Part shown: positions 8,706 through 35,095 of the stretch, piece after piece
Numbering within the stretch: the first letter of the stretch is position 1
Layout of the letters: the number at the start of each line of letters is the position of its first letter
From: a virus
Reading direction: 5' to 3' (one strand)
Length of the DNA: 64,000 nucleotides
IMG/VR virus record: IMGVR_UViG_3300042010_000106
Coordinates: 62,001 to 126,000 of that record
Made by a program: the position numbers and the translations under genes
Notes under the pieces: model-generated
Told to the model about the DNA's origin: nothing
Databases searched by the model: none
What the model saw: only the letters and a program-made list of their open reading frames with translations

Positions 8706-10709
8706 ATGAAAAACTTTTCTGTTTTCGGTAAAGCAGTTCACAGCGCCTACGCCACCATTCTGCAAAACGACGCAGGCCGTAAGGATTCCGTTTTCGTGGT
8801 GGACATTACCGGCGACGAATTGTGGGCGCACTATCTCGCATCTTTCCCGGAAGGCACCAACCCGATTTTCCGCACGCGCACTGAATACGATTGTTCGTGC
8901 TGCCGCAACTTCATCAAAAACATCGGCGCGGTTGTCAGTATCAAAGACGGCAAGTTGCAATCGGTTTGGGATATCGAAATCGACGACGAACTTTTCCAGA
9001 CCATCGCCGATTCCATGTCGAAGCTCGTAAAGTCGCTGAACATTGCTGCACCTTTCATGGTGAGCGAACCGGCGTACGGCGCTGAAGTGACCCACCACAA
9101 AGACGAAACGTGGCACCACTTCCACGCAAAAGTGCCAACCATTTTCATGTGGAAGCACAACGAAAGCAATTACATTGGCGAGCGCAAAAACGACTTCGAA
9201 GGTTTGAAGCGTTCGATCAAAGAAATCGACAACGATGCAATTGAACAAGTGGCCGATTTGATCGACCAAGATTCGCTGCACAAAGGCCCGGAATACAAAG
9301 GCAAAGTTGACCTGCTGCGTAAGCTGAAAGCGGCGTACGAGAAACTGAAAACCAAACGCGCACGTGAACTGTTTCTGTGGGCGAACGCCAAGCCGGGTAC
9401 GCGTATTCACAGCACCGTTATCGGTACGCTGTTGGTTGATCTTTCGACCGGTGAAGACCTCGAAATCGCCGTGAAGAAATTCGAAGACAAAGTGAGCGGC
9501 ACCAACTTCAAACGTTCGAAAGCGCTGGTCACTCAAAAGATGATCGACGAAGCGCAAAAGCTCGTTGAAAAGTTGGGCATCGAAGATTCGCTCGCACGTC
9601 GTTTTGCAGTGCGCGAAGATATCAGCGTTAACGACGTTCTGTTCGTTGATGGTTCGGTGAAAAAGAAACTGCTGGGCGGTGCGTTCGACTCGATCAAACC
9701 AACCAAGAAAAACGTTCCTGTTCTGACGGACTTGATCGAAGATATCAGCATCAAAGATTTCCTGAGCAAAGTTCTGCCGAAAGCGGATACGGTCGAAGTG
9801 TTTGTGCAGAATGAACATCAACCAACTTTCGTTTCGCTGATTGCCCCGGTGAATGCCGATTCGAAACCGCTGTTCAAATGGGATAACGGTTTTTCGTGGG
9901 CGTACACTGGTGACGCTACTGAATCCATCCGTGAGCGTGTGAAGAAAGCAGGCGGCAAAGTTGACGGCGATATTCGTATTTCGCTGTCGTGGCACAACGC
10001 AACCGACCTCGATCTGAGCCTGCACAAAAACGGCGCGCACATTTACTACCACAACCGTAATGAGTTCGGCGCTACGCTCGACCTCGACATGAACGGTATC
10101 GACAAGAAAGATTCCGTTGCACCGGTAGAAAACATTGTGTGGCCGCGTCTGGCAAATGCACAACCGGGTACGTACTCGATTGTTGTGCACAACTATGCCA
10201 CACGTGCGACCGCCAACGTCGGCTTTGAAGTTGAAGTCGAAGTGATGGGCAAGCTGTACAGCTACGAAAATGCGAAAGGTTTGCGCGACAACGAGAAAGT
10301 GAAAATCGGCGAAGTAATTATCGCGAAAGGTGGCGAAGTTACTGTCGTTGGTTTGACCGAAGGTGGAGCGTCCAATGAGAAATGGGGCGTGCACACCGAG
10401 ACTTGGACGCCGGTTGATTTGATCACCCGTTCGCCAAACTTCTGGAACGATCAGAAGATCGGTCACGAACACATTTTCTTCATGCTGAAAAATTGCGTAC
10501 GTGATGATAGCGCACGCGGTTTCTACAACGAATACCTGCGTGATGATTTGAATACGCATCGCAAAGTGTTCGAAGTAGTTGGTGCGCAAATGCGTGTGGC
10601 TCCGAACGACCAGCAACTGAGCGGCCTTGGTTTCTCGATCACCAAGCGTGACGAAATCAAAGTGCGCGTGAAGGGTGCGACTAACCGCGTTCTGAACGTG
10701 AAGTTTTAA
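8706..10709 (+). CDS. conserved phage/bacterial protein with C-terminal DUF2135/YfaP-like domain
   Basis: 667 aa, the largest product here. The N-terminal region contains a conserved stretch DELWAHYLASFPEGTNPIFR followed by a CSCC cysteine cluster (~residues 62-65). Residues ~418-520 (RISLSWHNATDLDLSLHKNG...HIYYHNR...LDLDMNG...VENIVWP) match the beta-sandwich pattern of DUF2135/YfaP-like proteins. I recall relatives of the whole protein in other phages and bacteria, without known function. Clean start with AGGAAGC upstream. The recurring decamer AACTGTAAAG overlaps its stop. It is followed by a coiled-coil gene, likely its partner, then a terminator. Confidence 0.9.
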   Translation: MKNFSVFGKAVHSAYATILQNDAGRKDSVFVVDITGDELWAHYLASFPEGTNPIFRTRTEYDCSCCRNFIKNIGAVVSIKDGKLQSVWDIEIDDELFQTIADSMSKLVKSLNIAAPFMVSEPAYGAEVTHHKDETWHHFHAKVPTIFMWKHNESNYIGERKNDFEGLKRSIKEIDNDAIEQVADLIDQDSLHKGPEYKGKVDLLRKLKAAYEKLKTKRARELFLWANAKPGTRIHSTVIGTLLVDLSTGEDLEIAVKKFEDKVSGTNFKRSKALVTQKMIDEAQKLVEKLGIEDSLARRFAVREDISVNDVLFVDGSVKKKLLGGAFDSIKPTKKNVPVLTDLIEDISIKDFLSKVLPKADTVEVFVQNEHQPTFVSLIAPVNADSKPLFKWDNGFSWAYTGDATESIRERVKKAGGKVDGDIRISLSWHNATDLDLSLHKNGAHIYYHNRNEFGATLDLDMNGIDKKDSVAPVENIVWPRLANAQPGTYSIVVHNYATRATANVGFEVEVEVMGKLYSYENAKGLRDNEKVKIGEVIIAKGGEVTVVGLTEGGASNEKWGVHTETWTPVDLITRSPNFWNDQKIGHEHIFFMLKNCVRDDSARGFYNEYLRDDLNTHRKVFEVVGAQMRVAPNDQQLSGLGFSITKRDEIKVRVKGATNRVLNVKF

Positions 10710-32888: not shown

Positions 32889-34079
32889 ATGAAAGTCAAT
32901 TTTGACATTGCACAAGGAACATACAAAAAGAAAACAGAAGCGAAGTGGATTGTTGACCCAAGCGTTGCGTGGGTTTCCTACACAATCAACGGGCGGGCGC
33001 CGACGCTCGCTCAATACATTGCTTATGATCAGTTGCAGCCGCCGAATCCGTTTCTGGCAGTGACACAAGATGGTCGCGGCAATGCTGTTTTCGATGGTGG
33101 TTTTCCAAAGTTTTACAACGTGTATGCGCCGCCAGCCGGTTCAGGTTTTGCTCAACTGAATGGCAGTTTCAAGTTCCTGTTTAACGCGCTCAATTTCTGC
33201 GCGAAGCCGGGTAAAGCTCGAAACGTTTTGTTCCTCGGCGATGCGCCGGACGATGCAGCAAACTACACGCTGAAAGGTTCACGCGGTACAGACTTCGCAA
33301 TCAGTATGCAGCGCGTTTGTGCGGCTGCTGGTTTCAACGCTTCGTTCCTTTCGGTTACGGACTACGGCGGCGTTCTGAATCCAAGCATGGCAACGCTTGA
33401 TCAGTTCTGCTGTGTGGTTCTGATGTCTTCGAATTATCCGGGTGTTCCACTGATTACGAAAGAAGCTGTGCAAGCATTTGTGCAGTATCGTGAAGCTGGC
33501 AACGGTGTAATAATTATCACTGACCACGGCGTTCCTGATATCGACGATATTGACGAAGCCGTTGACGGTTCTTATTCCGCTTTCTACCGAACGGCTAACA
33601 TGGTCGCGGCAGAATTCGGTGTGTTCTTCACAGGACTTTACGACCGGCAACCTGTGAACGTTGGTTTCATTCGTGCGAACTACGGCGACCATCCGTTGTA
33701 CGCAGGTATCACCAACGAAGAATCAATTCAGGCGGGCGCATCCGAATCGAAGGTTGTAGTTTTCGACTTCCGAAAATATGCACCGGGGGATTTGCCGCCA
33801 CTCGCATTCGTTGACGGATGTTATTTCGTGCAAGTCATGGCGTATTCGCACGACGGCACGGTCGAGTTCAGCCGGTTCATGTTTTGCATTGATCAAAACG
33901 CCGTTGTACACGTTCGTCGTTTGTACGTTCGTGAAAACAGCAACGCGCCGTGGGTGGTCAACTTCGACAAAGGCGGCTGGCGCGTTTACGACGCTCCAAG
34001 CAGTCAGTTCATCCAAATGAAAAGTTCCAATACTTTGTTGTGGGATAAGGACAACAAGGAATGGGTAAACGTAAAATAA
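32889..34079 (+). CDS. protein with GATase1-like (flavodoxin-type) domain, possibly virion- or glycan-related
   Basis: 396 aa. Residues ~108-215 alternate strand and helix like a class I amidotransferase/ThuA-type fold (NVLFLGDAPDD..., CCVVLMSSNYPGVPL, EAGNGVIIITDHG), a fold also used by glycan-acting and structural proteins. N-terminal ~100 residues and C-terminal ~130 are beta-rich; the C-terminus (VNFDKGGWRVYDAPSS...LLWDKDNKEWVNV) resembles binding modules of phage fibres. Codon use differs slightly from neighbours (more TTC/GTT). Adjacent to the alginate lyase, which suggests a cassette. Confidence 0.87.
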   Translation: MKVNFDIAQGTYKKKTEAKWIVDPSVAWVSYTINGRAPTLAQYIAYDQLQPPNPFLAVTQDGRGNAVFDGGFPKFYNVYAPPAGSGFAQLNGSFKFLFNALNFCAKPGKARNVLFLGDAPDDAANYTLKGSRGTDFAISMQRVCAAAGFNASFLSVTDYGGVLNPSMATLDQFCCVVLMSSNYPGVPLITKEAVQAFVQYREAGNGVIIITDHGVPDIDDIDEAVDGSYSAFYRTANMVAAEFGVFFTGLYDRQPVNVGFIRANYGDHPLYAGITNEESIQAGASESKVVVFDFRKYAPGDLPPLAFVDGCYFVQVMAYSHDGTVEFSRFMFCIDQNAVVHVRRLYVRENSNAPWVVNFDKGGWRVYDAPSSQFIQMKSSNTLLWDKDNKEWVNVK

Positions 34080-34092
34080 ACGGAAAGAAATA

Positions 34093-34332
34093 ATGAGCCG
34101 GGGCATAACAAAAGGGCAAGTGTTGATCGACGATATCAGCACAACACTCAAAGAAAAAATTGGCGCCGAAATTGTGCGCCGTGGTTTGACCCAAGTAGAC
34201 GTGACGAAGAAATTCGGCATTTCGAAAATCGACCTGTACAATTTGATTTCGGGTAAGGGCAGCGTCCCACTGGCGCGGGTGATCATGCTCGCCGCCGACC
34301 TCGACATCAAAATGGATTTCAAAATCGGCTAA
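34093..34332 (+). CDS. XRE-type helix-turn-helix protein
   Basis: 79 aa. Residues ~25-70 (EIVRRGLTQVDVTKKFGISK, DLYNLISGKGSVPLARVIML) form a five-helix Cro/XRE DNA-binding domain. Likely a transcriptional regulator or antitoxin-like protein. It sits between the GATase1-like and lyase genes and could control that cassette; inference from position. Confidence 0.85.
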   Translation: MSRGITKGQVLIDDISTTLKEKIGAEIVRRGLTQVDVTKKFGISKIDLYNLISGKGSVPLARVIMLAADLDIKMDFKIG

Positions 34333-34342
34333 CTGGAGACAA

Positions 34343-35053
34343 ATGATTAATCTCGATTTGTTGAATCTCACAACACCAGAACCAAAGTATCCGGGTAGTA
34401 CGGTAAGCATCATTTACCCGCCCGGTTCTTTCCCACAAAACGAATTCTTTTCGGTGTTGCCGAACGGTGATTTGAAATTGTGGGCACCGACTAAAGGCGT
34501 GTCGTCAAAGTCTACCAGCCGTACGCGTACTGAGCTGCGCGAGTGCATCGAAAACGGTATCGTCTACAACTGGCGCTATCCTGTCTTTGCACACCACTGG
34601 CTGCGAGTGGCAATGACCGTGCTGCAAGTTCCGAAAAAAGGTGAAACGGTTATCGGGCAAATCCACGTACACGGAAATACCCGACCGCCTGTAAAACTTT
34701 CGTTCGATAAAGCTGCTGACGGCATCGGCCAATTGACTGTGGGTTTCCGCACAACATTCGATCAGGTAAATCCTGTCGATTACGTGCTGATGCGTGACAT
34801 TCCAGTCGGTACGCGGTTCACGTTCAACATTCACGTGACTGCATCTGGAGCTGTTTTGTTTTCGTCGAGTTTCACCGACGCGAACGGACAGAAACAAACT
34901 GGAAATATCACGCTGCCTTTTGACGAAAGTTGGAAGGCGCAAGGTTTGTACTTCAAGGCTGGTGTTTACAACCAAGAAGATCCAACCGAATTTACCCTCG
35001 ACACTGAAGGTAGCGCAGCACTGATTCACAAGCTGGAAATAACACACGATTAA
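34343..35053 (+). CDS. alginate lyase, polysaccharide lyase family 7
   Basis: 236 aa, the usual size of a single PL7 catalytic domain. All three family signatures are present: RTELRE (62-67), QIH (106-108) and YFKAGVYNQ (203-211), giving the active-site set Arg66, Gln106, His108, Tyr209. PL7 enzymes cut alginate by beta-elimination; Ile in QIH is generally linked to preference for guluronate-containing substrate. There is no signal peptide and no obvious attachment domain, so it is either a virion component docked by another protein or released at lysis. Cleanly closed by a UUCG terminator. Start has CTGGAGAC upstream. Confidence 0.92.
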   Translation: MINLDLLNLTTPEPKYPGSTVSIIYPPGSFPQNEFFSVLPNGDLKLWAPTKGVSSKSTSRTRTELRECIENGIVYNWRYPVFAHHWLRVAMTVLQVPKKGETVIGQIHVHGNTRPPVKLSFDKAADGIGQLTVGFRTTFDQVNPVDYVLMRDIPVGTRFTFNIHVTASGAVLFSSSFTDANGQKQTGNITLPFDESWKAQGLYFKAGVYNQEDPTEFTLDTEGSAALIHKLEITHD

Positions 35054-35060
35054 CAGAAAT

Positions 35061-35095
35061 AAAGGTGGCGGACTTCGGTTCGCCATTTCTCTTTG
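35061..35095 (+). terminator. intrinsic terminator with UUCG tetraloop
   Basis: GGTGGCGGAC pairs with GTTCGCCATT (10 bp including G-U pairs) around TTCG, followed by TCTCTTTG. Closes the alginate lyase cassette. Confidence 0.85.

Follow-up and report, generated by a model that had tools for sequence, protein, structure and literature searches.

How can an alginate lyase encoded by a phage reach alginate if it has neither a signal peptide nor an attachment domain? This question is raised by a gene at 34343..35053 (+) in the 64,000-nucleotide stretch of viral DNA that we analyzed, the window, which comprises positions 62001-126000 of a viral record of 312,325 bases. It is the one PL7 gene in that record. 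Single-gene comparisons place the record nearest the Pseudomonas phages HRDY3 (314 kb), pf16, and Lu11, and from these phage relatives the host is probably a Pseudomonas. No DNA-level match to the 30-42 kb region of the window was found among cultured phages. The window is a mosaic of large-phage lineages, with a phiKZ-family structural homologue at 32889-34079 and a gene at 8706-10709 that is closest to pf16, Lu11, and HRDY3.

Identity and predicted structure of the lyase

The gene runs from ATG to TAA, is preceded by GGAG at 34335..34338 (+), which reads as a likely ribosome binding site, and encodes a single-domain protein of 236 amino acids. The initial annotation had described the product as a phage-encoded PL7 catalytic domain with three intact signatures and had proposed a profile search, and the Pfam result bears this description out. 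PF08787 (Alginate_lyase2) matches residues 3-235 with E = 1.3e-37 and 130 bits, covering positions 2-225 of the 225 in the profile. Since the cut-off for this profile is 29.7 bits, a chance match is ruled out. No model for PL7 was found in NCBIfam. In a phmmer search, the lyase matched PA1167 (1vav) at 5.1e-24 and A1-II' at 6e-12.

The three signatures, RTELRE, QIH, and YFKAGVYNQ, are all found in the sequence. The expected catalytic residues are Arg-62 in RTELRE (codon at 34526..34528, +), Gln-106 and His-108 in the Gln106-Ile107-His108 motif (codons at 34658..34666, +), and Tyr-209 in YFKAGVYNQ (codon at 34967..34969, +). R62, E64, E67, Q106, H108, Y209, and N210 are among the positions that are invariant in all 54 sequences of our alignment. 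We take the catalytic roles of R62, Q106, H108, and Y209 to be established for PL7, and the QIH motif presumably points to an MG- or G-containing substrate, by a published correlation. The dN/dS ratio of the lyase is about 0.09-0.11 against its closest homologues, an approximate value since dS is 1.25-1.6. A ratio of about 0.1 suggests that the product matters and fits a functional gene; by this comparison of sequences, the lyase is shown here to be under purifying selection. The PF08787 match and the dN/dS ratio together rule out a chance ORF.

An AlphaFold model, run on the 54-row alignment, has a pLDDT of 95.4 and a pTM of 0.91, and is nearly all β. VIA-align superimposes it on PA1167 with Z = 33.0 and 1.2 Å over 215 residues, spanning residues 2-236, and on A1-II' with Z = 27-28. 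The model thus has the PL7 β-jelly-roll fold, and since the alignment to PA1167 covers 2-236, the chain would be one catalytic domain and nothing besides. A non-catalytic concanavalin-type family had been named at the outset as the alternative assignment. In a Foldseek search of the PDB, lyases of PL7 type or of PL18 make up the first 41 matches of the model, and lectins rank far lower (PA1167, 3e-20; best lectin, 2e-6). A concanavalin-type lectin in place of PL7 is rejected both by sequence (PF08787) and by fold (Foldseek, VIA-align). On the profile match and the predicted fold, the assignment of the product as a PL7 alginate lyase is confirmed, and it is predicted to be active on alginate.

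Absence of a leader and of an anchor

No signal peptide was found in the lyase. Within the N-terminal 40 residues, hydrophobicity by a crude measure reaches an average of at most 1.04 over any 10 residues, as compared with 2.65-3.0 by the same measure in several secreted relatives, and residues 7-14 already form a strand of the fold in the model. Neither an extra nor a docking domain is present, as PL7 fills the 236-residue chain both in the Pfam match and in the comparison of the model with PA1167. An N-terminal virion anchor and a trimeric β-helix spike architecture are likewise absent from the protein. The description of the lyase as lacking a signal peptide and an attachment domain therefore stands, on the low N-terminal hydrophobicity and on a PL7 domain that is the whole protein. 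What does not stand is the notion that this lack is a peculiarity of phages. Close cellular relatives (about 224-240 aa), including chromosomal copies in Pseudomonas and Azotobacter, are also leaderless and single-domain, and in start-site-aware translations nearly all phage and Pseudomonas-type copies have 222-243 residues and no hydrophobic leader. Leaders or extra domains occur in several distant bacterial PL7 proteins, from Legionellaceae, Solimonas, Panacagrimonas, Paenibacillus, and Hirschia. Because both cellular and phage copies are leaderless, the missing leader is a trait of this broader lineage, not one invented by phages. Two prophage-like IMG/VR contigs, L019 and L043, carry a leaderless PL7 gene amid integrase, repressor-like, ERF-like, and SSB-like genes, and in these it is possibly a lysogeny or early gene.

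Relatives and phylogeny

Among cultured phages, relatives of the lyase were found in 18 of 50,697 phage records (E ≤ 0.01), all at less than 60% identity; 17 of the 18 are Pseudomonas phages. Closer copies, with 69-84% identity, are present in IMG/VR (L005, L006, L007, L008, L013, and L017, together with the fragment L066), along with about 50 more distant relatives. The cellular relatives are mostly from Pseudomonas, at about 30-37% identity, and the closest are from an uncultured gammaproteobacterium, L074 (55%), and Azotobacter chroococcum, L075 (50%). In the tree, the six complete phage copies of the window clade group together (support 97/93), with L074 as their sister (95/94) and Azotobacter next (85/77). 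A large jumbo-phage clade that includes Psa21 is placed instead with chromosomal Pseudomonas genes. The separate placement of the window and Psa21 clades indicates that PL7 has been exchanged between phages and cells more than once. At least five changes between phage and cell are forced by the starred branches, the exact number being unsure because of long branches and possible prophages. The cellular sister gene, L074:4962-5684 (+), adjoins L074:1889-4432 (-), whose product combines a β-helix with RTX repeats and in this resembles a secreted AlgE-type mannuronan epimerase.

Three other Pseudomonas phages share PF08787 with the window phage and encode PL7 proteins with C-terminal extensions, consisting of a proline-rich linker and a helical tail: Nican01 (L123, 5980-6888), QdP_Psa3 (L125, 5845-7023), and AH02 (L121, 8001-8858). 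The additional 60-145 C-terminal residues are absent from the window lyase. These extended proteins are candidates for virion-docked alginate lyases.

Local genes and movement of the lyase gene

The lyase is the last gene of a tight trio. The first, at 32889..34079 (+), encodes a homologue of a virion structural protein of phiKZ-type phages (phrog_11065, 3.7e-98), and its product is 52% identical to an HRDY3 protein annotated as virion structural protein. The second, directly upstream of the lyase at 34093..34332 (+), is a small helix-turn-helix gene (phrog_1373, transcriptional regulator, 1.5e-8); it is not common to other lyase sites and has a homologue elsewhere in HRDY3. No convincing promoter of its own was found upstream of the lyase, which is probably cotranscribed with the helix-turn-helix gene. 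If the lyase were cotranscribed with the structural gene, its expression would presumably be late, a timing compatible with release and docking alike. Just 3' of the lyase, at 35063..35088 (+), is a hairpin with an 11-bp stem and a TTCG loop (-17.8 kcal/mol, z -2.7). This hairpin may be a terminator; it has a weak T-run, and the region contains no more terminator-like sites than expected by chance. The record of the window phage gave no match to PF13472 and none to PF12708, and hence a partner esterase and a pectate-lyase-type spike are both rejected for this phage.

Across different phages, the lyase copies with 69-84% identity are found in at least four contexts that are unrelated to one another. 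In the related phage HRDY3, the interval from the structural gene to the next gene common to both phages is filled by unrelated genes, with no lyase among them. L005, L008, and L013 are HRDY3-like phages in which the lyase lies near a conserved phrog_18980 gene, upstream of a sigma-factor gene; it follows the phrog_18980 gene directly in L008 and L013, and one gene further on in L005. No lyase is present at this place in the record of the window itself. HRDY3 and L013 are 87-88% identical in two genes around this place, where HRDY3 has no lyase, and their blastn alignment breaks off two bases short of the lyase start and picks up again 0.17 kb past its end. L006 is a phage like Cygsa01 (166 kb), and L007 and L017 belong to yet another phage type. 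In the tree, L005 pairs (95/95) with L006, a phage of another type, and not with L013, which has the lyase at the same site. Furthermore, among the HRDY3-like phages, the lyases are 80-83% identical, higher than the 28-71% of the neighboring orthologues. The lyase is thus present or absent among related phages and found at differing sites, and it is single-gene accessory cargo, resembling a moron in this respect.

No partner gene, such as one for a docking protein, is common to all lyase contexts of the window clade, and a conserved docking partner traveling with the lyase is rejected on these grounds. Flanking DNA shared among the sites was rejected as well, since side-by-side reading by eye gave no common block upstream or downstream, in agreement with the unshared neighbors. 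Recent transfer is not supported by composition. In each host phage, the G+C content of the lyase follows that of the phage, and dS is above 1 between most copies, so the transfers are not recent. A GatB/YqeY-like gene directly follows the lyase in L007 (3937-4350) and L017 (6736-7131), and in L005 (12948-13397) it is three to four genes downstream of the lyase; this is possibly a coincidence.

Proposed route to alginate

Since the lyase has neither a leader nor an anchor, lysis of the host is the simplest route to alginate. We propose that the lyase would be made, catalytically competent, in the cytoplasm of the infected, probably Pseudomonas, cell, and that with no export signal and no virion anchor it would accumulate until the lysis proteins of the phage burst the cell. 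Spilled as a free, diffusible enzyme, it would then cut the alginate around the burst cell by β-elimination, and the thinned matrix would allow the progeny to reach new cells. The lineage probably originated as a gene of an alginate-making gammaproteobacterium, of the Azotobacter or Pseudomonas type, that moves between phages as an accessory gene. We consider it probable, with some reserve, that the lyase is cytoplasmic, becomes free when the cell lyses, and removes the alginate surrounding that cell. Enzymatic activity, alginate as the substrate, the host, the timing, the free release, and the benefit to the phage are what we infer here.

Several observations argue for release. The lyase is kept in at least four contexts whose neighboring genes vary, so that no docking partner is constant either. 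The PL7 gene of AH02 is located just before a lipase-like gene and a holin gene. In the temperate-prophage-like contigs, by our reading of gene content, leaderless PL7 genes are in early regions and not among structural genes. Alginate as the substrate fits with carriers that are Pseudomonas phages in 17 of 18 cases and with a sister cellular copy beside an AlgE-type epimerase-like gene. Against free release, the lyase is co-oriented behind a virion structural protein homologue, which would suit a virion role too. Indeed, the lyase might be a minor virion protein, docked noncovalently to a head or tail protein and opening a path through alginate on entry. In QdP_Psa3, the gene for the long PL7 protein comes after that for the major head protein, and binding to the virion may therefore occur for some phage PL7 proteins; the Nican01 protein has its helical tail. 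Phage exopolysaccharide depolymerases known so far are also mostly virion-bound (PMC5380687). However, the window lyase has no extra domain or tail for docking, no constant neighbor or structural partner travels along with it in the other contexts, and leaderless single-domain PL7 proteins are found in cells, where there is no virion at all. Docking is therefore unlikely for this protein, and the anatomy of the lyase and its gene contexts favor release over docking, without amounting to proof.

Since the cellular relatives are leaderless too, the lyase could have inherited a role before lysis, in the cell or its envelope, for example on periplasmic alginate or after nonclassical export by the host. 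Because alginate is polymerized at the inner membrane and leaves by way of the periplasm, a cytoplasmic enzyme would not meet it, and no secretion partner or signal was seen for the lyase; we regard action before lysis as improbable. About equally improbable is that the gene is a passenger of little use to the phage, or that this PL7 enzyme acts on another polyuronate. PL7 does include a β-glucuronan lyase (7nde), and the absence of the gene from the related HRDY3 makes it dispensable, but dN/dS near 0.1 is not expected of a passenger. The closest structure by far is the alginate lyase PA1167, which, like the epimerase-type neighbor of the sister copy and the nearly exclusive occurrence in Pseudomonas phages, disfavors a different substrate. 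Free release at lysis remains the reading that we prefer.

Comparison with known enzymes

PA1167 (PDB 1vav), the PL7 alginate lyase of P. aeruginosa, resembles the window lyase in its whole-chain fold, single domain, similar length, and motifs, but it is chromosomal, not phage-borne, and only 31% identical. The PL7 proteins of Psa21 and the vB_PpuM phages (Amme-1 and others) are also free-standing and leaderless, with 224-226 residues, and come from large Pseudomonas phages. They are 34-40% identical to the window lyase and have QVH or QCH and NFHAG/QFHGG motifs, and that of Psa21 belongs, as above, to a separate clade nearer the chromosomal genes. PL7 is already annotated in Psa21, phiK7A1, and AH02; our literature search found no paper studying such an annotated phage PL7 protein.

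Phage alginate lyases have been known as activities since the work of Davidson in 1977 on an Azotobacter vinelandii phage (30-35 kDa), followed by that of Glonti in 2010 on phage PT-6 (37 kDa), in both cases with the gene not determined (PMC5380687), and these classical enzymes have been termed "unsequenced" (PMC12772287). They are phage-derived like the window lyase, which is predicted from sequence, whereas they were observed as activities, and they are larger than the approximately 26 kDa expected of it. Azotobacter, the host genus of the 1977 phage, is among the nearest cellular relatives of the window clade. The P. putida phages phi15 and AF have virion tail-spike exopolysaccharide depolymerases of 78-79 kDa and of the pectin-lyase type (PMC5380687). 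The presumed job, exopolysaccharide clearing, is the same, but the window lyase is one small PL7 domain.

Reviews cite phage alginate lyases as tools against mucoid Pseudomonas biofilms, with the activities cited lacking a gene (PMC5380687, PMC10621286). The compact PL7 family, assigned with high confidence and represented in dozens of phage contigs as well as in the cultured Psa21 and vB_PpuM group, provides test sequences for such enzymes and candidates for those known only as activities since 1977. The pattern at the family level is leaderless, mobile, and widespread in large Pseudomonas phages. It poses the question of whether phages use unattached, lysis-released depolymerases, which neighbors could share, beside virion-bound ones. 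We suggest, tentatively and with more doubt than for the window lyase itself, that leaderless single-domain PL7 proteins form a widespread mobile class of lysis-released, nonvirion depolymerases, and that the never-sequenced phage alginate lyases, known as activities since 1977, are among them or their longer relatives.

Genes near PL7 in other phages

At five loci in four phage types, PL7 has an SGNH/GDSL lipase-like gene of a single family (phrog_6102, PF13472) no more than a few genes away: AH02 (L121, 8001-10289), QdP_Psa3 (L125, 5845-10074), Amme-1 (L002, 9887-16038), Peetri (L127, 5887-12194), and L007:3208-8725. Since bacterial alginate carries O-acetyl groups, a deacetylase partner for PL7 is conceivable; SGNH/GDSL lipase-like genes are common in Pseudomonas phages generally. 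One large-phage lineage (L020, L030, L047, L049-L051, L053, L058, L059, L063, L064, and L073) has a conserved neighborhood in which PL7 is kept with genes for a virion structural protein, a terminase-like protein, an HslV-like peptidase, and a PhuZ-type tubulin.
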